Assembly (NCBI RefSeq): GCF_016859285.1
Contig: NC_053411.1
Location: forward strand, 6,696,001-6,760,000
Source of the DNA: Xiphias gladius
Taxonomy: Eukaryota > Chordata > Actinopteri > Istiophoriformes > Xiphiidae
DNA length: 64,000 bases
Direction of reading: 5' to 3'
A model generated the notes under the pieces. The model saw only the letters and a program-made list of their open reading frames with translations. It was not told the origin of the DNA and ran no database searches. How positions within the stretch are numbered: position 1 is the stretch's first letter; the number at the start of each line of letters is the position of its first letter. The position numbers and the translations under genes were made by a program. Positions 9,133-56,360 of the stretch are shown here, piece by piece.

Positions 9133-9333
9133 ATGCATCTCCATCCTCTGTCACACTCTTTCTTCCTCCTCCTGGTTGCTGAGGCAGCCGTGGTGTGCGT
9201 TGCCGTGACGACCACGCTCCACGGTTTCCGAGGCTGTGCGGTGCGAGAGTTCTCCTTTGTGGCCCAGAAGCCCGGCTGCAAAGGACTACGCATCACCACG
9301 GAGGCCTGCTGGGGGCGCTGCCACACCTGGGAG

Positions 9334-9392
<59 letters not shown>

Positions 9393-11009
9393 ACATACAC
9401 GGTGAAGAAAGAGAACAGCTGTCACATTTAGCTGATGTAGGAGTCCCACTTTTTTCCATCGCTGTTTCTGAAAACTTCCATGATACTGGAATTAATCAAA
9501 TGAAGGATTAATGACCCAGGATGCAACTCAAATCATAAAAAGGCTGATTACTTACTCTCAGCTCTGACCCATATGTCATTGTAATAAAAGATGCTCAAAT
9601 CCCTCCAAATTGGGAGGGTTAATAAACTTATTCTGACCTTGTTCTAGTTTGCGCAGATTCAAAATTCACCTCAGAGTGGTTGAAAAACCAAATTTGGCGG
9701 GTCAAAAACTCAGTCAGTCTCAAAGTCTTTACAGGTGAAAGAGCTCTAATAAGCAACAGTAGAGGTGACTCAGTCACACGGCAGAAGGTCAGTATTAGAG
9801 TTTAATCAGCTTGCTTAACAAACAAAACAAAACGAGCAACCCCCCCCCACCCCCCCACCCACCCCTTCTCAAGGTTCACTTGCTACTTTTTTCATGGGCT
9901 TTCCACTGCATCTCATGGTCTTTCTCAGTGGATGGAGTTTGCTATTTTGACAAAGAAAATCTTAAGTCGCGGTCCACTCATTATCTTTTTTTTTTTTTCT
10001 CAGCTGTCAACTGCATCTCACAGTCTGCCGTGGTGGATAGAGCTTGCTAACAAAAAATGAAAACACTTGCTTGCTTCTCCTGGGGCTTTCAACCACATCT
10101 CACATTCTTCCTCAGAGGCTGGAGTTACAGAAAAAACAAAACAAAAAAAAACAACTCATCGCACTGAAATTTTTCAACACATACTCAAAAAATGTAGACA
10201 AATGTTCTAAAAAGGAACTTGGGTCTTTTATATTGCAAAGAGAAAGAGCGAGTAATGGTGAGTCCTAGAAGTGATTGATAAGAACGGTAAGTCAGAGTCA
10301 GATGTTGCACTGTTTCTGTCCCTAACAATTTCAGTGCAACCTGAATGGTGTGACTGAATGGTGACTAAGGTTTGTGAGGAGCACAAAGCTATTGAGAGTA
10401 TCACTTACACTCCGGTTCTACGCTGCATTACGTGTGCCATCAACTGCTGTGATCCCACAAATATCTTTTGGTTATTACCTCCAAATGCTTAAGTGTGATG
10501 TCAAGTAGGACAGAAAAAGTGGCATTATTCAAACTCATTCAGTCCATGACCTATGACTTTTGTTGTCTGAGTCCACTTGGTGTGTTTAAAGGAAGGCATG
10601 TAGCTTTTTCTTCTCTATTTCTTTTATTTTCTTTACTTAGTCTTAGACTTTCTGTGTATTGATCCTGTAACACAAATATCAGAAACATTGTTGCATTCAC
10701 CGATAATAGTTTTTGTCGGTAAATTGGAAAGAAGCTCTCATCAAAGGTCATACCCGTAATTGGTGTTCCACCAGGGTGTATCTGTGTGTGTGTGTGTGTG
10801 TGTGCGTGTGAACCCTGTAGAAACCAGTGCCGGATCCCCCCTACATCCAGCGACACCACCGTGTGTGTACGTACAGCCGTACCCGCTACATGACAGCCCG
10901 GCTGCCGGGCTGCCAGCCCAACGTCTCCCCTCTCTACCACTATCCCATGGCCCTGAACTGCCACTGTGCCGTCTGCTCCACACAGGACACAGAGTGTGAG
11001 ACCTTCTGA
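9133..11009 (+). CDS. gphb5: Thyrostimulin beta subunit (glycoprotein hormone beta 5)
   Basis: Two coding exons, 9133-9333 and 10821-11009 (TGA 11007-11009), meet in phase 0 (donor gaggtaaca, acceptor cctgtag) and give 129 residues. The ATG at 9133 opens a hydrophobic signal peptide (SHSFFLLLVAEAAVVCVAV). The mature cystine-knot domain has ten cysteines (35, 49, 59, 63, 83, 98, 114, 116, 119, 126). Hallmarks are GCAVREFSFVAQKPGC, GLRITTEACWGRC, the glycoprotein-hormone beta motif ACWGRC, and the end CETF. It lacks the extra C-terminal Cys of the seat-belt found in TSH/FSH/LH beta chains, as is usual for GPB5. The product should be secreted and pair with GPA2 (encoded just downstream) to activate a TSH-receptor-type GPCR. 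The usual sequon after VCTY is replaced (VCTYSRTRY); an NVS occurs at 101-103. A frame extends upstream to 9037, but an acceptor at 9131 makes 9133 the better start. Confidence 0.95.
9337..9390. repeat. (AC)n microsatellite at the gphb5 intron donor
   Basis: A pure AC tract starting only two bases after the donor hexamer gtaaca, inside the single coding intron of gphb5. Confidence 0.97.
9841..10160. repeat. C-rich run and three diverged tandem modules in gphb5 intron
   Basis: After a poly-C stretch (9841-9866), a module of about 48 bp recurs at 9898-9945, 10000-10050 and 10083-10128. Each reads roughly ctttcaactgcatctca, then cagtggatggagtttgcta. The spacing is about 102 and 83 bp. No coding frame continues through all copies. 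Confidence 0.55.
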
Positions 11010-11215
11010 GGGACAGAGCAGCACTTTCACTGTACAGTGCTATTAAGTGTTTCACTGATATGGATGACACAGATCAAAATGATGAAATCAAGATATCTCA
11101 GCCTTGAAGGAAGGATATTTGACACTGAGTAACATAAAAATGATCCCTCCTTTAGACTGAAGACCATGTGTGTATCAATATACAGTATATGTCTGTATGT
11201 AGGAAAGGAGAAACA

Positions 11216-11221
11216 AATAAA
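11216..11221 (+). terminator. Poly(A) signal AATAAA for gphb5
   Basis: A canonical AATAAA lies about 207 bp after the gphb5 stop codon and gives a short 3' UTR. It is the first such hexamer downstream on this strand. Confidence 0.6.
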
Positions 11222-11936
11222 CAAAATAAGAATAAGAATATTAGAATAAGAGTTCTGTAATTCTTCGCCATGATGTTACCAATACTGAATTTAAGAACAT
11301 ACAAATAAATGCACTTTTTTGATTATATGTTAATATATTAAATACTGTATATCAACTGTAGCGCTATTATAATCTAAAATAAGAAAGGTGAGCAGTACAT
11401 ATACATTCTTTGTTTTAACTACTGTACTGTATCTGTGTGGCAAGGCCAAATTACCAAGCGCTAAAGCGGGCAACTGGGGGCCCCAGACCCTCAGGAGCCC
11501 AGTGTTTTTGTGTGTGCATAGTTTATGGTAATAGGTAAAATGCAAATTTGTTTGGGATATTCACCATTACATTAATATTTCAACTGAATTTGTCATGACG
11601 TGGTCTTTTAATGGGGCCGTGTATTAATCCCCCAACAGTTTTACTGTAATACCAAATTAATACCGTAATTGCATATGTTTATATTGTACTCACATGCTGC
11701 AAATTCCTGCAAAAATCTTTGTCATTTGTTTACTTGAAGATGACACAGCTTATTTCTGGCCCAGGATCCCAGAAGGGTTTGTCTGGCCAGGCTGTGTTTC
11801 ATCTACTGTATGTTGACAATAACATACAGTATTTGACTTCGTCCATTCTCAATGGACTGTAAAACAGTAATAACTGATAACCGCATAACGATAATCAGGT
11901 AAGGATGCTCAAAAATCAACCACCAGCAGTATACAC

Positions 11937-11939
<3 letters not shown>

Positions 11940-12019
<80 letters not shown>
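11940..12019. repeat. (TG)n microsatellite between gphb5 and gpha2
   Basis: A pure TG tract of about 80 bp in the tail-to-tail gap. Next to it (12030-12235) is a degenerate block with gtccccacaatgtaaa and aacgtaatgtcccc, resembling a teleost repeat that often sits beside microsatellites. Confidence 0.95.
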
Positions 12020-12022
<3 letters not shown>

Positions 12023-12294
12023 CATGTTGTAGGTGAATCAGTGACATTGACTCACTTCCCTTTTTGGGACAAAATTCAAGTCCCCACAATGTAAATTATT
12101 AAATGATTAAATTTACTGTTACTGTCGGGATTTGACAAGTAGTGGTCACGGTGAAGGTTAGGCTAAGTCACCAGGGCATTAATCTAATTCAACGTAATGT
12201 CCCCTTAAGTAATGGAAACAAGTTTGTATGTGTGTGTAAAGTGGGAAGATAAAGCAAAGGTCTATGTCAACCACTAAAAGTTGCAGAATAGAAA

Positions 12295-12300
12295 TTTATT
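12295..12300 (-). terminator. Candidate poly(A) signal for gpha2
   Basis: TTTATT on the given strand (AATAAA on the minus strand), about 1.0 kb after the gpha2 stop. Other AT-rich hexamers lie closer, so the true site is uncertain. Confidence 0.4.
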
Positions 12301-13318
12301 GAAATCCAAGTTCATCACAAACTATACAGTGCATTCTTTCTCTTTTCATTTCATTGATATTTCAAACATTCATTGGTTTCATCAATAATTATTTACAAAA
12401 TCTCTTTCAGTTCAAATTCATAAATATAAATAAATTTGTACATTCTTTAGTCTCATCTGTGTTTAGTGGTTATTTGAAAGAATGGAACTATTTATTTCTA
12501 TGACCTTTATGATTCCAAATGTTGACAATATATTGACTTTTTTGTTTAATACGAGTCATGGAAGAGATTACTTTACTGTCTCAACTTATTGTTCTCATTC
12601 ATTTTGACATATTTCAAAATATAAAAGAGATATAAAAGACTTACACTTCCCACTGAATCACTAAGTATGAATGATAGTATGACTATTTTTTTTATTTCTA
12701 GCTGCTTACAGTAAATCAAGTCTTTGCCAAGCCTCAAAGCAAAATATAAAAAAGGTTGAGTTTGTGTGACAGAATGGCTTATACTGCCTTTAAAAAAAAT
12801 GTGTATCAATCAAGTTTTCTAGAAGAGCCACATTTTACACAAGCAAACACAAACAGAGGAACATGCAACACACACATACTACCTGCTCAAACAGCACATC
12901 TTTGTAAGCATACAAAAGTGTGAATTTTTCACACGTCAATATTAAAGTACCGGGTGACTGGTCCAGAGCAAATTTCACTCTGCCTGAAGGAAGTTCACTT
13001 GATTTTAGTAGAAAATTTGAGAGTCACATGGGCTAGGTAGTTTTGCAGAAAACCTCTCCATCTTTTAATCATTTTCTGTCAGCCTTCCTTCCATTCTTGA
13101 AGAAAAAAAAACGGAGGACACCCTGGTTTTGACAGTAACATGGTGGAAGGCCAATTTGTCTTCAATTAAATAGGTTAAAGTGAATTTTCTTCAACATTCA
13201 AAACAAGTCGACATACTGCAAATAGAAAAAGGATAGTTACTCTTGCATTTTGATCATTTAAACTGTTATTTGGATCTTATCCTGGTGTACGTCTGTGACA
13301 GCATACTGTCTGGATGTG

Positions 13319-13754
13319 TCAGTAGCGGGACTTGCGGCACATGTCGCAGCGACACGCCTTAGCTGTCAGGATCTCTATTTCGTCATGGTGACGACCACGA
13401 GGGCAGTCCAGGCGAACCCTGACCTGAGGGAATACAAGCCACAGGGCATGAACAAAAATAAGAGAAACATAATGATGTAGTCCACATCCAGTCAGCTCCC
13501 TCCACTCCTCACCTTGGCATCCTTGCTGATGGTGCAGCATTGTGAAGCGGAGGTGATGTTGTGGGTGAAGTTGGAGGCCACCAGTACGGAGTATCTGGAC
13601 GGGAAGGCGCTGGACTCGCAGTAGCCCACGCAGGCGTAGACCAGGTGGGTGCCTTTGCACGTGCTGCGACGGTCACTGCGGATGGTCACGTTGAAGGCTG
13701 GAGATGAGGTGAACGACAGGCGGTTGGGTGAGGGCGAATGAGCTTGTGTATGTG

Positions 13755-13805
<51 letters not shown>

Positions 13806-14163
13806 GGATGCAACAGTTAAAAAAAATCGCAACATCGCTGTCATCATTTGTTGTGATACTTTCATGTAAATAGTAGAATCTTGAAACAGACCATGAAGGT
13901 TATTTATCTCAACCAGAAGTACTGTTGAAGATAATGTTCTCAAGACCACATTACCCATACACCCTGTTGCTTCCTGTCAATAGACGCTGATTTGGGGACA
14001 CTGTGAGTCACATCTAGAACCTTGTGCTATATACGTGTAACTCACGGTAAAGGTGACAGCCAGGGGTGAGGGCATCATAGCTCCAACCAATAGGAGAGAA
14101 GAGCAGCAGTGACACCACTGGTAAGACCAGCAGGAAAAGGTGTGAGGCCATGCACAGCGACAT
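13319..14163 (-). CDS. gpha2: Thyrostimulin alpha subunit (glycoprotein hormone alpha 2)
   Basis: Three coding exons on the minus strand: 14163-14046, 13697-13513 and 13423-13319 (TGA 13321-13319), with phase 1 then phase 0 junctions, give 135 residues. Residues 1-28 form a signal peptide (MASHLFLLVLPVVSLLLFSP). The mature chain has ten cystine-knot cysteines (36, 53, 62, 66, 93, 94, 108, 125, 127, 130). Family hallmarks are PGCHLYPFNVTIRSD, ACVGYCESSAFPSRYSV, SQCCTIS and the end CRCDMCRKSRY. N-glycosylation sequons are NVT at 42, NFT at 82 and NIT at 86. CESSAFPSRYSVLVAS matches my memory of mammalian GPA2 and differs from the pituitary common alpha chain. The product is secreted and should pair with GPB5 from the convergent neighbour. 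Confidence 0.96.
13759..13801. repeat. (GT)n microsatellite in gpha2 intron 1
   Basis: A pure GT tract within the intron between the first and second coding exons of gpha2. Confidence 0.95.
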
Positions 14164-32100: not shown

Positions 32101-32580
32101 CCCAACAGGTGAGGTTAATGTCTTTATTTTTAACGATAGCATCCTTATTTAATTGTGCGTCTTCGTGAACACATTTTAATCTACTCACAGCTGTGCCATT
32201 CCAAGGTTCATTGCATGATTGTTGGTTCTCATCTATTGCGACGTGTACATTTTCGAAAACAGCAGCATTGTAACAATGTTTATACGACATCGTGACGTTA
32301 GGACGTTTCAACGCAGCAACATATTGAAGTCATTTATCGAGTACGATCCAAAGTTCTAAAACTGCGTCGCTGTAGGTTGTAATGTTCTAAAACTGAACTG
32401 TTGTAACAATTTTTGTGCTTCATTGTGACGGCCAACGTTCTACAATGTAACACGGTACTGTACAAGAAAACCTCTCATTTGTTTTTCACTCAACTCTCTC
32501 TCTCTCTCCCTCTTTAACAGGGTTGGATAGCCCAAAGAGTTCAAACAGGGTACAAAGAAAATAGGCGCCTTTCAGACCAG

Positions 32581-34394
32581 ATGTCCTCCTCATCCGCCGC
32601 CATCTCTTCTGTCCCTCTAAATACGGGGGTTCAAATGCCCCTTCTGGGTTTGGGGACATACAAGTTGTGGGGTCCCGAGGACGTCTACCGGGCTGTGGAT
32701 GCTGCCTTGGCTGCTGGGTACCGTGCCTTTGACAGTGCAGCCGTTTACAAGAATGAAGCTGACTTGGGTCGAGCACTGAGGGAGCTCCTGCCCAAATATG
32801 GATTGACGAGAGAGGATGTTTTCATAACCAGGTTATGTATATGGGCTTATATGCCTGCCGACACTTATGTCAGTAAATAAGAGACCTTTGGGGTATTACA
32901 GTACATAAGGCAGAATCTTTTCTTCCGGCACCTTTATGAATATGCATGTCATCTTGAATAAAGCTGGAAGATAAACATATCGATGGAATAATTATTTTTC
33001 GATGTGACACTAAATATCCCCTTTCGCAATATTGTAATGTACTTAAAATGTTTTCTTAATCTGACTGTTCTAGCTGAGTAAAATGAACAATGTATACCTC
33101 CAAGGGCTTGGGTGTCATACCCACATCACATGACCCCCCCCCCTAGAGATCAGATGGAGGCGCTGAAGCTCATGTTTCACACGCACAGTGCACATGCAAA
33201 TTCTTCCCCACGACAGTCTTACTTTGTTTTCTTTCTTTCTCAATGCAGTAAGCTGGGCCCGAAGGATCAGGGTGAGAAAGCCATGGAAGGAGCCCTCCGC
33301 AGCCTGTCGCAGCTGGACTTGGATTACATTGACCTCTACCTGATCCACTGGCCTGGCACACAGGGTCTGGTAGTGACTGATCAACGCAACTCGGGTAAAG
33401 AGTTCAGATGAAGTCAAGTTTTCCTTTGTGTACCAAAAATATCATCGGAAATGTAACTGTGCATGCATGGACTGTATGTACATTTATTTTAAAAAGAAAA
33501 GTATAGCATTTGAAGTAAATCTTTTGGCCAGGTGTTTTATAAATAAATGCTCCACTAATTAAGAGGTAAGATTCATGCTGCCTTCTCACATTCCTCCTCT
33601 ACAATGTAGTTGTATTTGAGTAGCCGCGATGATGAAGCTGTAATTAATATTTGATTCCAGGCAACCGAGCTCAGAGTTGGGCCACCCTGGAGGAACTGCA
33701 TGCCCAGGGGAAGCTGAAGGCCATAGGAGTGTCAAACTACACACCAGCACACATGAGAGAACTGATACAGAGCTGCAAAATCCCTCCTGCAGTGCTACAG
33801 GTATAATGCAGGAGAGTGAAAGAGGCTTAGATAATATATGATTTATAAAATTGTAAACAAATGCAAAAAAAATAAATAGTTTTGTGCACTCAGTTCTAAA
33901 TAATAAAGCCAATGCAGAGGGTGTGTATGTTTTTATTCTTCAGGTAGAGTTTCATCCACGGCTGTGCCAGACTGAGCTGAGGAAGGTGTGTGAGGAGTAT
34001 GGAGTGTGTTTCCAAGCCTACTCCTCTTTAGGGAAAGGAGAGCTGCTCACTGATACCACGGTTACAGAAGTGGCAAAGAACTGTGGACGCACACCTGCAC
34101 AGGTAAACACCTACTACACCCCTTTTTGGGCCAACCTCACTAACTCATTGTTCAATAAATACACATTTTTGCACAGGCACTTGGAAAACATTTAAATGTT
34201 TTGCTCACCTCCAGGTCCTGTTGTGCTGGGCGATGCAGCAGGGTGTCCCAGTGCTCCCCAAGTCCTCGAATCCGGACAGAATAAAGGAGAACGCCAGGCT
34301 TTTTGACTTCACACTGAGTGACACAGACATGGCCAGATTGTCAGCTTTAGACTGTGAGCATAAGTACTGCTGGGATCCTTCAGAAGTGGCTTGA
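32581..34394 (+). CDS. Aldo-keto reductase family protein (NADPH-dependent)
   Basis: Coding exons 32581-32831, 33249-33394, 33661-33800, 33944-34102 and 34215-34394 (TGA) join in consistent phases to 291 residues, close to the usual length of about 300 for a single (beta/alpha)8 barrel. The catalytic tetrad is intact: D51 and Y56 (AFDSAAVYKNEADLG), K85 (FITSKLGPK) and H117 (DLYLIHWPG). The cofactor signature VLPKSSNPDRIKEN is near the C-terminus. It should reduce carbonyls to alcohols with NADPH; the natural substrate cannot be told. It resembles the short prokaryote-like AKR group (diketogluconate reductase or prostaglandin F synthase type) found in fish. An upstream exon 32097-32108 plus 32521-32580 extends the frame by 24 residues from ATG 32097, so the start may be there (315 residues). 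ATG 32581 matches the conserved core and follows an in-frame stretch rich in Gln/Arg. Confidence 0.93.
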
Positions 34395-37830: not shown

Positions 37831-38848
37831 CTACTCAGTGCGTTGAGAGTGGTTTTCATGGTGGTTGTTTTCTCCTTCGGTCTCCTGGTGACTAAAGAGG
37901 TAGCTCCACCAGCTTTTAGAGTGGTGCATCTGTCTGGCCGTCCCAGCGCTCTTCACCCTCCTCATCTCCTGCACAAAATATAGATAATATAGTTTCAATT
38001 CCGGTTTCCCCTATTGGATTAAGTCATTCTAGCACATAGAACATCCTGGCATAACCCGTTCCTTTTCCTTTGCCACCAGCATCTTATTATCACCACCTTT
38101 ATATAATTTTAATGCTACCATTCTTGCCTCTTTTGCCAACTATACTAAATATAACTAGACGGTCTATGATCTCTCTTTTTTAAAACCCTTTTAAACCCGT
38201 CATCCATCCTCTGACCCCTCTTTCTCACCCCTTTGTCGAGCAGGCTGTCAAACTCGTCACTCATCCTTCGGAGCTGCTGGCCGTATTTCTTGGCCGCCCA
38301 CAGGGCAGGGGGAGCTGACTTAGATCGTCCACGGAATGGAGCTCCATCAGTGGGCGTGCCAGCTTCCTCTTCCCCCCTGGCCTGGATCTCATCGTCTCTG
38401 TACACAGTGGAAGCGTGGGACTCTGAGTTCAGCCTGATTCGACCGGTTGCTACGTCAGGAGAGAGAAAGGTAACAGGGGTTAGGATTAGAACATAAAGCA
38501 CCTGGAAAGGGGTCAATAATGAAATAAACTAGGAATAGAGGAATTCCTTGTAATCACTTATCACCACTCGTCATTGGAATGAAAGATGGGGCAGTTTAGA
38601 TTACCCTGAATGCTCCCATTAACAGGCAGAAAAGTCCATGTAGTGATAAAGCAGTATGTACTTGGAGTCCCACTCAACTCATAATCCTTTGAGGTTTCCC
38701 TACCTGGCGTTCTGAGCTTAGGAAGGGTGAGGGTGTGGCGTTCAGGAGCCTGCTGCTCTTCTCCTGTTGATGATTGGTTCTTCTCTACTTCCTCTACCTC
38801 CTCCGACGTCTCTGACTCGCTGTCTGAAATAGTGAAGTTTGCAGCCAT
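37831..38848 (-). CDS. bad: BCL2-associated agonist of cell death (BAD), BH3-only protein
   Basis: Three coding exons on the minus strand, 38848-38704, 38449-38229 and 37968-37831 (TAG), with phase 1 and phase 0 junctions, give 167 residues. The BH3 helix is LWAAKKYGQQLRRMSDEF (98-115), with the invariant L108 and D113. The 14-3-3 site RGRSKSAPP includes S93 (mouse S136 equivalent), and S112 lies within BH3 (mouse S155 equivalent). After BH3 comes VKSAGTARQMHHSKSWWSYLF, as in other BAD proteins. BAD binds BCL-XL/BCL-2 at mitochondria to promote apoptosis; phosphorylation hands it to 14-3-3. The N-terminus is acidic and serine-rich (SDSESETSEEVEEVE). The start codon lies 9 bases after an acceptor (tctccag), so the first exon is non-coding. 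Reading through the second donor would give another tail ending PSSYI; this is probably only intron retention. Confidence 0.95.
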
Positions 38849-51313: not shown

Positions 51314-52396
51314 TGAGGTGATGGGGGAGGGTTAGTAGGCACTGAATCTGTAATGCTGTGATGCTGAGCTGAGAGAGGAGGAATTACACAAGAGTTAGTT
51401 AGGGAGCAAGGAATGGCGTGTGGCAGAGACTAGTTCTGAAAAAATACTGGGATCTGGAATCTGGAACAGTGTATTGTTTAACTTTTTAGTTTAAAAGTAT
51501 TTGGATTATGTTAATTGACTTTGAAAAAATTACAGTGAGTTGAATTCCTTTATACATATACTTATTAAACAAGTTGTTAGAACTTTTTCCCATTTATAGC
51601 CAGTGTTCCCATTTCTCTTCTGACTCACTATCCAGATTAAAACGATGGCACGTTGAAATACAGTATTTCCAGCACACTTTTTTCTTTAGTAAAGTTTGAC
51701 GGCAGAAAGAAATTAAAAAAAAAACAAAACACAAGTTTCTTCCGAAATTTAAGAGCAAAACTTTTTTTTTTGTTGGAGAAATCACCAATTTGTGCACTGA
51801 ACATTAGTGCCAGCAAATGAAAGTGAACGTCCTGACAAACACAAATTAGTTTAGAGTATATGTTGTTAATTACACCACGGTTTGGTTGAAATCAACAAGA
51901 CCATGCATCCGACAGGTCAATAAAAAGGCATTCTGAGAAGGGAAAGAAAATCCTTAAAAGAATTTGACAAGGTAGGTTGACGATTAAGGCATCGAAACTA
52001 TGAAAAAACTAATAAAAATAAATAAATCTTGGGACACACCAAACATCATAGGTTGATAACTTCCAACACAGTAAGACTGTTAGAGGATCAGTTTTCTTTA
52101 CAGCAGTTTCTGCACCTTAAATGATAGGTCTAGTGATGTCTTATATTTTTCTTACAGTGAAAAAAATCTCATGGACAACCAAAACCCACAATTAGTTGAT
52201 TCTGCTAACAATTAGGCAAAGCCTGATAATGCTTATTACTGCTGTGTCATAGAGCTCCATTTTTGCTCAAAAACTATTACCGCACAACATTGCACTACCT
52301 GAACATTTTCCTTCGTTACTGTGATCACGGGCCCCATAGTTTATTTTGAGTCGGTCCCGCGTACAACTACACGCCGTCAGAAACACTCAGCAGAGC

Positions 52397-52452
52397 ACCA
52401 AATGTGCAGTAATCCGTGGCTGAAAATAGTCCCCGACAAATGCACAATTTAC
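52397..52452. repeat. Dispersed repeat core, copy 2
   Basis: Matches the core at 18479-18535: caccaaatgtgcagtaatcc, then ggctgaaaatagtcccc, then acaaatg. A few substitutions separate the copies. Confidence 0.5.
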
Positions 52453-52865
52453 AGTCAAAAGTAACAAAAATACAGAATACTGACAGCGGTATCCTTTAAA
52501 TAACAGAGGAGATGAAAGAGAATGTGGTACTTTTGCCTTTGTAATTATTCTGAAGGAGAATATATCTCCATGTTCAAACACAACCCAGCATCTTGTTCAT
52601 TAACAAAGTAATGTAATATTACATGCACAGCCATTCACAGAATCCTCAGTTCTATTCATTGCTGGACTTTACTCTTCTGAACAGTTATCACAGAAATCTG
52701 TGTAGAGACATGGTGGATGTGTTTGGCATCTGTATGTCCGCTTATGTGCTTATGTGTCTTATTCAATCATGCATATTCTGTCATGTAGTGTGTCAAGTCT
52801 GCTTGTTTGTCCAGCTATGAATTTGCACTTATGCATTTAACTGGAATGCATTTGGATATGGATGG

Positions 52866-52868
<3 letters not shown>

Positions 52869-52954
<86 letters not shown>
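52869..52954. repeat. (TG)n microsatellite passing into (GA)n
   Basis: A TG tract of about 86 bp followed by gagagagtgagagtgagaga. Confidence 0.97.
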
Positions 52955-52960
<6 letters not shown>

Positions 52961-53083
52961 TGAGAGTGAGAGAGGGAAAGATGTTCCCTCAGGGTGTGAA
53001 TTAGCTTGCAGTGTAAAGGCCATGCTTCATGCTGAGACAGAACTCTGATCAACTGTGTTGAAAAGACAAATAATGTACACTCC

Positions 53084-53330
53084 TCTTCTCCTCTCACTCA
53101 TTATTTACACTGACTCCAGCACTCCTCTCCCTCCTCCTGCTCCTTTTGCCATCTTCACAGCACCCATCCCAACCATCTCTCTTGTCGCCTTCCATTCTCC
53201 CTCCTCCCTTTCTCATTCCTCCTCGCTGGCCTCCATCCTCTCCTCCTCGTCTCTGCTGTTTCATCTCTCCTTGTCGCCTCCTCACCCGCTCATCTCATCT
53301 CATTGGAAGATATCTTTCTTGGCCACCTCC
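53084..53330. repeat. Pyrimidine-rich (CT) block
   Basis: A strong C+T bias on the plus strand (ctcctcctgctcc, ccctcctccctttctc). Long frames on both strands reflect composition, not a gene. Confidence 0.7.
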
Positions 53331-54651
53331 TGTGTAGAGAGGGGAAGCAAGGCGAAACAGCACTTAATGAATCAACAAAGAAATTGCATACACTATATTT
53401 TTGGGTCTCTGGTATAACACACTCACAGTTCAAATGATACAGTAATCTCTTTGTGTATTTAGAATTTTGACCCTTTCATACTGATCTTTGACCTTTTTCG
53501 TCATCAACAAAAAATCCAAACAATTTTGGTTCCAGTTTCTCAGATGAGAGAATTTTCTGATTCTCTTTCTTTTTTTAAAAAACTTGATTGTAAATTTAAT
53601 ATGTTTGGGTTTCAGACCTGTCATTGGACAAAACTGGCAATTTAAAGACATCTTCACAGTTTTTTTTTTTACATTTCAATAATGTAATAATGAAAATAAT
53701 CATTGGTTGCAGCCCTGAACTTGTAAAAGGCAAAAACTTTCACTTGCCTCCATCCATTTTCCATCTTCATCTTACTTCTTTTTGGCAGGACCTCAACAGC
53801 ATGGCCAGCCCTATAAACTCAAATGCTAGTGACTGACTGAGTGAGTGATAAAGTTACACCACTGGTCAGCCGGCCGAGTGTTGGTGTTTCCCCATTTGTT
53901 GTTGCTGTTTCAAAACGAATTGGTTTCATCAGGTGGGGGTTTAGAGGTAGTGTTGCCAATTTAGCGCATTTATCACTAGATTTTCCGACTTTTCACAACC
54001 CTTCAGCGACTTTTCTTCAAAATAGCACCTGGTGGCAAATCAGATCCGACTTTTTGGACAAACCACAGCTACTTTCTGTAGAAGAGGGTCGCCGGTATTG
54101 CCCCGCGAGGGAGAGCTCAGGCTTTTCCCCTCCGCCACCTTCTCTATGTGTCTCATTCAGTTGACCGCACGGCAGCTGACACCGACGTGAATGAGCTTCT
54201 AACTTTCTCTCTGAGGCATCATTTTACAAGTAAATCTAGCCGAAATCACAGCACAGCCGTCGTCTTTAACTAGTGTCTGCGGAGATTTTTATTTATTGAT
54301 TTATTTATTTTACAGACGACGTTACGGTTATAAAATCAGGATTTAGCAATGCAGAGCAGCAGCTTGGAAATGGCTTGGGAGTGACTGCTGGTTAACGTGT
54401 CGTCTCAATGGGCCGCGTTTCGGTCACTATTTCACACTTGTTCCGTTGTCTGACAACAGAAACAGAAAAACATGTAAATGAGAACAACTTTATTGCTAAT
54501 TCAGATGTATTAAATTACTGTAAATGTGAGCACAGAGAGTAGGAGAGAAGAAGACGGATAAAGGGCGATCCAGCCGTAATTAGGTTTTGACCTAGTCTTG
54601 TTTACCTCTGCTGCTTTTCAGCTCAGCAATGTTCCTTCTATTGCTGTTGCT

Positions 54652-54773
54652 TCTCTTCTCTTCTCTTCTCTTCTCTTCTCCAGTGCTCTGCGTAGGGGTG
54701 ATGCTGCTGGGAGTGCATGCTCCTTTGGTTCACATTCATCCTGTGTCCCCCAACACACACTTACACACAGGCA

Positions 54774-54834
<61 letters not shown>
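54652..54834. repeat. (CTTCT)n and (CA)n microsatellites
   Basis: A pentamer repeat tctcttctcttctcttc (54652-54680) is followed by a CA tract at 54777-54834 that ends in gcgcgcg. Confidence 0.9.
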
Positions 54835-54836
<2 letters not shown>

Positions 54837-54949
54837 GCGCGGTAATAGCCACTGTCTAGCCCTGTGCTTACCCCCCCCACTCCTGCTCACATTAGCTCAT
54901 CCTTCCTCAGCCTCCATCTCTTTTTTTTCTTTTCTCAGTTTCACATCTT

Positions 54950-55018
54950 TCTCCCCCTCTCTCCGTCTCGTTGTTTTGCACAAGAAAGAGAGAGAGAAAG
55001 AGGAAGAGATGCTCCATG

Positions 55019-55055
<37 letters not shown>

Positions 55056-55744
55056 CAGCGGGTGAAGTGCGCGTGCTCTGTCGCCGCCGCCGCCGCTTCA
55101 GAGGAGGAGAGACGTTTATTCAGTTGCTGAATGAGGGACGAAACGGAGGGAAGGGTGAACAGATAGAGGGATGAGTGAATGAATGAATGAACGGATCCCG
55201 ACCTGGGCTTCTTCTAGAGTACCGAACCGGTGAGAGGACACAAACACCGTGTGTAGCCTATTACCATTGTTATAAATACGAATGTACTTGCATTTATCAC
55301 AATTGTATTAGTTGCTGTGGTTGTCATATTTGAGCCGTGTGTGTGACACAAAGTGTACAGATATGTGGAGCGCGTGGTGCATTCACTTTGACAGTTCCGT
55401 TAGTGTCCCGCAGTGTAATTTGCACAGATCGGTGCATGCGTGCGTAAAGAGGGAGCACAAAACCTGTCAGGGCGAGATCAGGCGGAGGGTGAGCGGGAGA
55501 GAAACGGGAAGCTGATGGAGAAACCGCCGAGGAATCCGTTGGACATGCGTGACCGTGGGTCTCTCCCAGGTGTGCACGACACCGCAGAGCCGTTCCCCTG
55601 TCCGAGAGACGCCTTCAGCACAGATCCAATTAAGCATTTATCCAGCGCGCAGTCTTCTCAGCTGAGAAAGAGCGTACGTGCGTAAACCGGGGGTCTCTGA
55701 CCGGCGCCTCTCTCTGCTGGGGGGGAGAGCGTCGGTGGAAAACG
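54950..55744 (+). promoter_or_regulatory. GC/CpG-rich promoter with candidate 5' non-coding exon(s) of a gene running right
   Basis: This is the most CpG-rich block in the right half (gtcgccgccgccgccgc, ccagcgcgcag, accgaaccgg). It contains a (GA)n tract at 55019-55050. Two plus-strand donors lie downstream: ccgaaccg|gtgagagg (exon edge 55229) and gaaaacg|gtgagtgac (exon edge 55744). A 56-codon frame at 55515-55685 has no recognised similarity and may be an upstream ORF. The gene's coding exons would lie beyond the right edge; its identity cannot be told. Confidence 0.45.
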
Positions 55745-55935
55745 GTGAGTGACATTTCCCCAAAGCTGCCGGGGTATATCCTCGTTGGACCGGGTTGTGG
55801 ACCGCCCAGGCCGGTGAGGGAGGATGAGGTCAGGGTTAAGGATGGCGAACACACCCAGGTCTAGAGGGACCGCGCGCACCGGGTCAGGGTGCACGGAAGG
55901 AATGGATAGGCAGTGATGGTGGTGTTGGTAGCGTG

Positions 55936-56360
55936 CCGGTGATGATGATGATGATGATGATTATGATTATGGTGATGGTCATGATGATGGTGCTGTTCTT
56001 GATGAGGAAAAAGGTTGTGGTGGGAGTTTTGATGATGATGATGATGATGATGATAACTGAGATAGGGGCAGCATGATGATGATGAAGATGAAAATGGTGC
56101 CAGTAAAAAAACAATAAAAATACTGGTGATGATGATAGTTGTGATGAAGATGATGACGGCTATGGTTCTTGTTGAAAATAGTTGAGGTGGCGGTAGTTTT
56201 ATGATAACGGCTGAGATAATGATACTATGATGGTGGTGTTGAAGATGACGATGATGTTGATGATAATGGTGCTGGTGATGATGACATGGTGGACGTTTTG
56301 ATGATGATGATGATGGTGGTAGTTTTATGATTATAGCTGAGCTTATGGCAGCATGATGAT
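55936..56360. repeat. Cryptically simple (GAT/ATG)n region
   Basis: Many runs of gatgatgat, interrupted by ttatgattatgg and ggtggtg, spread over about 420 bp. It lies just downstream of the candidate 5' exon, in what would be its first intron. Confidence 0.9.

Follow-up and report, generated by a model that had tools for sequence, protein, structure and literature searches.

The genes for the glycoprotein hormone subunits GPA2 and GPB5 have been described as old neighbours. According to passages of the papers cited throughout, adjacency of an alpha (gpa) and a beta (gpb) gene is ancestral and occurs in most invertebrates and in amphioxus (Dos Santos 2011, PMC3280201; PMC8522476), and one GPB5 copy remained beside GPA2 in teleosts and the coelacanth (PMC3280201, PMC6752823, PMC8522476). 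This copy, GpB5a, was described as "always immediately adjacent to GpA2" with its paralogue GpB5b elsewhere (Hausken and Levavi-Sivan 2019, PMC6752823); GpB5b lies on another chromosome than GpB5a and GpA2, and synteny agreed with the two-paralogue split. The linked copy was reported lost in tetrapods, cartilaginous fishes, gar and sturgeon (PMC6752823). Here, a gphb5-type gene and gpha2 were analyzed in a 64-kb stretch of the Xiphias gladius contig NC_053411.1 (positions 6,696,001 to 6,760,000; hereafter the window, numbered from its first base). Very probably, the locus represents the vertebrate GPA2-GpB5a pair as it occurs in percomorphs, adjacent by descent from an early-animal gpa-gpb locus. 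An initial annotation of the window had proposed that the fish locus may keep the ancestral arrangement, and the literature bears this out for the adjacency, which is already in print together with its ancestral origin (PMC3280201, PMC6752823, PMC8522476).

Both genes were intact and convergent (tail to tail), and all three introns had GT..AG boundaries. On the plus strand, the beta gene, identified below as GpB5a, consisted of coding exon 1 (9133-9333; ATG start, donor GAG/GTAACA), intron 1 (9334-10820) and coding exon 2 with the stop codon (10821-11009), together encoding 129 amino acids. On the minus strand, the gpha2 model comprised coding exon 1 (14163-14046), exon 2 (13697-13513) and exon 3 with the stop codon (13423-13319), encoding 135 amino acids. 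The start codons, with ATG at 9133 and 14163, lay at the far ends of the pair, which spans 5031 bp, and the stop codons were separated by 2309 bp (11010-13318), in agreement with the tail-to-tail order and the spacing of about 2.3 kb noted initially. A coding-score scan returned no coding-like segment lying wholly between the two genes, indicating that they are immediate neighbours. The spacer carried a (TG)40 repeat at 11939-12019. The first plus-strand AATAAA of GpB5a was at 11216, with seven further plus-strand signals, and minus-strand signals were located at 12696, 12496 and 12300 (AATAAA) and at 13069, 12550 and 11612 (ATTAAA). With the first signals used (11216 versus 13069-12300), no overlap of the transcripts at their 3' ends is predicted, though later signals on both strands could allow it. 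The passages of PMC8522476, PMC4341566, PMC3280201, PMC4200219, PMC5996578 and PMC8398477 contained no statement on gene orientation.

Each chain contained 11 cysteines, of which one fell within residues 1-30 and the other ten lay beyond, and a hydrophobic leader was visible in both sequences. Pfam assigned the beta chain to PF00007 (Cys_knot, E 2.7e-18) and the alpha chain to PF00236 (Hormone_6, E 5.7e-6), both above cut-off, so the earlier description of two intact cystine-knot chains with ten cysteines each holds for the part after the leader. GpB5a was a cystine-knot beta chain with ten cysteines and without the two extra seat-belt cysteines. Homologues were listed as rows, each a 90%-identity cluster named by one member: 120 of 212 for the beta search, 120 of 234 for a search from coelacanth GpB5a and 120 of 273 for GPA2. 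Among those listed, the best matches of GpB5a were fish "glycoprotein hormone beta-5-like" chains (E 1.2e-77), the nearest being from Scomber (95% over 78% of the query), and those of gpha2 were fish "glycoprotein hormone alpha-2" chains (E 2.1e-79; best 93% over the full query). The comparison of the translated exons with known proteins thus supported both family names. Up to E 1, searches of solved structures returned no thyrostimulin entry for either chain; the top matches of the beta chain were the LH, FSH, CG and TSH beta chains, and the alpha chain had one weak match (E 0.41). Judging from its hydrophobic leader, GpB5a may be secreted, and it is predicted to form a dimer with GPA2.

A phylogenetic analysis was used to place the beta gene between the two paralogues. 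The large tree contained 120 rows, namely the window plus every listed row except the fragment P0082 (119 of 120), over 99 columns. In this tree, the window and 57 teleost rows lay on one side of a branch with support 100/100, and these 58 were joined by coelacanth GpB5a with support 98/91. The search seeded by coelacanth GpB5a added gar, bowfin, more teleost GpB5b and two reedfish proteins. A small tree of 39 chosen rows, also over 99 columns, then separated 14 teleost GpB5a rows including the window, together with coelacanth GpB5a and the reedfish protein P0241, from 23 other GPB5 rows (98/87), with gar GPB5 on the GpB5b side. In the two trees, the second teleost gene grouped with tetrapod GPHB5. 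Because both trees are unrooted and short, they show the split and not its root.

The tilapia GpB5a and GpB5b primer sequences published in PMC6752823 gave the teleost side of the split its name. The GpB5a reverse primer matched the window at 22 of 22 bases (10988-11009, the end of exon 2) and the forward primer at 13 of 19, whereas the GpB5b primers matched 6 of 26 and 8 of 22 bases at the same ends. The beta gene could instead be the orthologue of human GPHB5, having stayed with gpha2 in fish and relocated in the human line, and its "beta-5" name and Pfam family fit this. However, such orthology is scarcely credible and was rejected on the basis of the trees, in which the window groups with teleost GpB5a and the second teleost gene with tetrapod GPHB5, and of the primer matches; the synteny in PMC6752823 agrees with two paralogues as well. 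On this sequence evidence, the window gene is identified as GpB5a, the copy kept by teleosts beside gpha2 and lost in tetrapods. The fish counterpart of human GPHB5 is GpB5b; the human gene never moved away, and the linked copy was lost instead. The initial label gphb5 therefore stands at the level of the GPB5 family and fails as a counterpart of human GPHB5. Its comparison with the separate chromosomes of the human genes was misplaced for the same reason, as it mixed two paralogues. The fish "GPHB5" beside gpha2 and the unlinked human GPHB5 are naturally misread as one gene, and since they are different paralogues, their positions are not directly comparable.

The reedfish bears on the published history of GpB5a. 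The tree in PMC6752823 itself placed coelacanth GpB5a among GpB5b, and loss of GpB5a in basal actinopterygians was reported there. The second GPB5 of the reedfish (Erpetoichthys), P0241, which is without a contig entry, grouped with coelacanth and teleost GpB5a, which suggests from sequence that a polypterid retains GpB5a, so that the loss may not extend to all basal ray-finned fishes. In the collection of papers searched, none mentioned polypterids together with GPB5 or Erpetoichthys together with thyrostimulin, and among the first 20 of 249 papers from a further text search none contained GpB5a or thyrostimulin. In catfishes and electric knifefishes, GPA2 rows were present (P0171, P0174, P0181, P0166 and P0193), and no GpB5a of these groups was named among the 120 listed of 212, where cluster naming may hide members; this hints at a possible loss of GpB5a in both groups. 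Two papers on salmonid gphb5 (PMC10853659, PMC5158070) were left unused, as their passages do not state the paralogue.

To follow the pair across species, equal size of the longest contig for both genes served as a proxy; the tables hold no positions, so it reports linkage rather than adjacency. Among the listed rows, GpB5a and GPA2 both had a contig entry in 11 species. The longest contig was of the same size in six (Etheostoma, Umbra, Festucalex, Stigmatopora, Cirrhinus and Hoplias), with consecutive locus tags in Umbra and Cirrhinus; three were ambiguous because a cluster spanned several contigs (Trematomus, Chanodichthys and Arapaima), and two differed. As six of 11 species share it, the linkage is not a quirk of one assembly. 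In Hoplias, GpB5b did not share the contig size of GpB5a and GPA2. In three of four non-teleost fishes among the listed rows (Amia, Lepisosteus and Latimeria), GPA2 and the GpB5b-type gene were on different contigs; in the fourth, Erpetoichthys, the GPA2 cluster spanned two contigs and the comparison was ambiguous. This cross-species pattern is as the published scenario predicts.

The separate contigs in gar, bowfin and coelacanth might be taken to mean that teleosts re-joined the two genes secondarily and that the linkage is not ancestral. This is very improbable, because the GPB5 genes concerned belong to the other paralogue in the small tree, coelacanth GpB5a lies beside GpA2 (PMC6752823, PMC8522476), and gpa and gpb adjoin in most invertebrates (PMC3280201). 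The gar, which the initial annotation had named as a decisive genome, indeed carries GPA2 and GPB5 on different contigs; since its GPB5 falls on the GpB5b side, this does not refute inherited linkage.

Under the preferred and very probable reading of inherited adjacency, the pair goes back to the one gpa-gpb locus that early animals had. One GPB5 copy, GpB5a, stayed by GPA2 after the early vertebrate genome duplications, and another, GpB5b (human GPHB5), lies elsewhere in the genome. The present locus holds two separate genes, tail to tail, in a region that probably corresponds to human 11q13. From the families to which the chains belong, the likely product would be a non-covalent GPA2/GpB5a dimer of the thyrostimulin type, which may act on a TSHR-like receptor close to its production site. 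GPA2 could also pair with GpB5b made from another chromosome.

The adjacency could also have been kept for shared regulation, with both chains made together in equal amounts, as the initial annotation had suggested. The linkage is tight and very long-lived, and one review takes its persistence as an evolutionary constraint (PMC8522476); co-expression in the same cells was described in the mammalian pituitary in the same source. Nevertheless, the pituitary is the sole tissue where this was seen, and GPA2 and GPB5 are unequally distributed among tissues in human and rat (PMC8522476), the mammalian gene being of the GpB5b type. Distinct expression of the subunits in amphioxus and Aplysia is indicated by reference titles cited in that review, and in tilapia GpB5a and GpB5b were cloned and no GpA2 transcript was found (PMC6752823). 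The genes do not have the head-to-head 5' ends of a bidirectional pair; because they converge, their promoters lie outside the pair, about 5 kb apart, so that a shared promoter is impossible and was rejected. GpB5a and gpha2 differ in intron type as well. With separate promoters and published expression that mostly disagrees, shared regulation or equal-amount production is not supported, and as the cause of the adjacency it is unlikely. The adjacency reflects inheritance and is not proof of matched dosage, because the promoters are separate and GPA2 may pair with GpB5b.

Glycosylation motifs and charge set teleost GpB5a apart from other GPB5 rows. Human GPB5 has a single N-glycan that is needed for its expression (PMC12691860). 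The conserved site, corresponding to window residue 86, carried N-x-S/T in 60 of the 61 listed non-GpB5a rows, and it was retained in coelacanth GpB5a and P0241 and in only three of 58 teleost GpB5a rows (a set that excludes the window and includes P0082). The sole N-x-S/T of the window GpB5a was NVSP at residue 101. An N-x-S at this position occurred in 17 of the 58 rows, 12 of them with proline at +3, which tends to weaken N-glycosylation, and 27 rows had no N-x-S/T anywhere; the residue-101 motif was therefore set aside as a clean substitute for the lost glycan. Averaged over 52 teleost GpB5a rows (six others dropped), the mature core carried a net charge of +3.96, compared with +0.17 for 12 percomorph GpB5b rows and -0.12 for 49 other GPB5 rows. 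Individually, the window had +4, P0241 +3 and coelacanth GpB5a 0, so the basic shift is not common to all GpB5a. Teleost GpB5a was also richer in histidine and more basic than the other GPB5 rows. The lost motif, its tilapia and coelacanth exceptions and the fewer acidic residues of GpB5a were already described in PMC6752823.

Loss of a motif on which expression of human GPB5 depends (PMC12691860), together with a likely pseudogene in zebrafish (PMC6752823), would fit a GpB5a that is a relic, no longer translated or secreted, with the linkage a passive leftover. This is improbable, as all ten cysteines were kept in 52 of the 58 teleost GpB5a rows, the fragment P0082 being among the other six, and the mature core of the window was 83% identical to that of the osteoglossomorph Paramormyrops over 93 columns. 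The conservation of cysteines and core suggests long purifying selection on GpB5a.

GPA2 of the window had two conserved N-glycan motifs, NVT at residue 42 and NIT at residue 86; 107 and 118 of the 120 listed rows, respectively, carried one at these sites. A third motif, NFT at residue 82, lay in gpha2 exon 2 (13513-13697), four residues ahead of the conserved one. This site had a motif in 79 of the 120 listed GPA2 rows (273 found), which were neopterygian where named (ten were without a name, and P0133 was also labelled ferret), and the 41 rows without it were all non-neopterygian by name. The passages of the three papers on both GpB5a and glycosylation did not mention the 58-row counts, the motif at residue 101 or the third one of GPA2. 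As GpB5a has lost its glycan motif and become more basic, yet is intact beside a gpha2 with a third motif, we considered that GpB5a of teleosts may depend on its partner as an isoform released from the cell only once it has folded together with GPA2. This idea is speculative and probably wrong; if true, it would explain why fish have kept the old linkage. Motif loss combined with chain conservation makes the question of an obligate dimer for vertebrate thyrostimulin testable.

Intron 1 of GpB5a (1487 nucleotides) had a conspicuous structure. It opened with GTA(AC)27, so that the AC array started from the fourth intron base (9337-9390), and a 22-nucleotide TG run near its 3' end stopped at 10804, 16 nucleotides ahead of exon 2. 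The two arrays are complementary and about 1.4 kb apart. The pyrimidine tract was weak (0.55 pyrimidine over 40 nucleotides), the two gpha2 introns reaching 0.75 and 0.775. In the lowest-energy fold of the whole intron, the ends paired with each other over 26 pairs (ensemble expectation 29.0), and the end-to-end duplex reached -61.5 kcal/mol versus a best of -20.6 among 62 internal windows. End-to-end pairs were absent from the centroid structure, probably because the repeats can pair in many registers. Complementary dinucleotide arrays at both ends of one intron define AC/GT-bridged introns, and the two gpha2 introns were not of this type. Such introns in fish are described as having an (AC)n array directly behind the 5' splice site that can pair with a (TG)n array directly ahead of the 3' one (Lin et al. 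2016, via PMC6093180 and PMC9198270), and no evident difference was seen in the sequence of GpB5a intron 1. By its sequence, intron 1 is thus of an ordinary, known fish type; AC/GT-bridged introns make up about 10% of those in zebrafish and do without U2AF (PMC6093180, citing Lin et al. 2016).

Three further genes were located in the window. The 3' end of a plus-strand gene for a B56 regulatory subunit of PP2A (165-1801; pieces at about 165-275 and 1571-1801) came from the coding-score scan. The piece at 147-275 matched Pfam B56 (E 2.6e-5; 23.8 bits, under the cut-off of 25) and, among nine matches to B56 chains in the PDB, was closest to the alpha isoform (E 2.8e-12) with no beta isoform present; the C-terminal piece gave no B56 match in the Pfam search. 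Judged by its C-terminus, the gene is most likely isoform B, ppp2r5b. An aldo-keto reductase gene lay at 32566-34334 (plus strand; PF00248, E 4.6e-8 on 32584-32817, other exons from the coding-score list), and BAD, a pro-apoptotic BCL2 family member, at 38196-38824 (minus strand; PF10514 Bcl-2_BAD, E 6.2e-19 on 38196-38465, rest from the coding-score list). In PMC3280201, the human [GPA2] set on chromosome 11 is one of four paralogous sets and [GPB5] another.

A B56 subunit gene and BAD thus accompany gpha2 in the window. We take PPP2R5B, GPHA2 and BAD all to lie at human 11q13.1, and PPP2R5E beside GPHB5 at 14q23; with these positions and the published sets, the window would fit the GPA2 set and human GPHB5 the other. 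Elsewhere, G+C content over 4 kb peaked at 52001-56000 (0.453); this part of the window has long open frames around 55 kb, of which 55425-55682 was compared with Pfam and had no match. Within the 64 kb, 16 perfect CA/TG arrays of at least 30 bp were counted, and there was no Rfam match at the gathering threshold and no tRNA.

Several observations weigh against an inherited GPA2-GpB5a pair. Short unrooted trees alone do not establish GpB5a as a clade from sequence. The two differing species of the 11, Anguilla and Oncorhynchus, have GpB5a and GPA2 on contigs of different size, their entries possibly coming from different assemblies. The ppp2r5b isoform and the human map positions are tentative assignments, and the best PDB match of the B56 piece is to the alpha isoform. 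A GpB5a without its glycan motif was proposed to be untranslated or unsecreted (Hausken and Levavi-Sivan, PMC6752823). Overall, the initial observation was correct; the arrangement is already known, the beta gene had been given the label of the wrong paralogue, and co-regulation is not supported. The small additions made here are the grouping of reedfish P0241, the glycan and cysteine counts of GpB5a and the AC/TG-bracketed intron 1 of known type; the additional rows, P0241 and the motif counts, sharpen the published story.

Compared with known systems, the invertebrate gpa-gpb loci of Ciona, amphioxus and oyster resemble the present one in that alpha and beta genes adjoin (PMC3280201, PMC4200219, PMC8522476), a likeness that covers the neighbourhood only, orientation being unstated in the passages. 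Human GPHB5, like vertebrate GpB5b in general, also encodes a cystine-knot beta chain with ten cysteines, but it lies on the opposite side of the tree and on another chromosome (PMC6752823). GpB5b-type rows differ further in their CTYNxT motif (60 of 61 listed) and near-neutral charge, whereas the window is without the ancestral motif and has a charge of +4. The teleost GpB5a-GpA2 locus is the closest described system. It has the same two genes as immediate neighbours (PMC6752823, PMC3280201), and the reverse primer published for tilapia GpB5a fits the window at every base; the ancestral glycan motif, which GpB5a of tilapia and coelacanth is reported to carry, is missing from the window.

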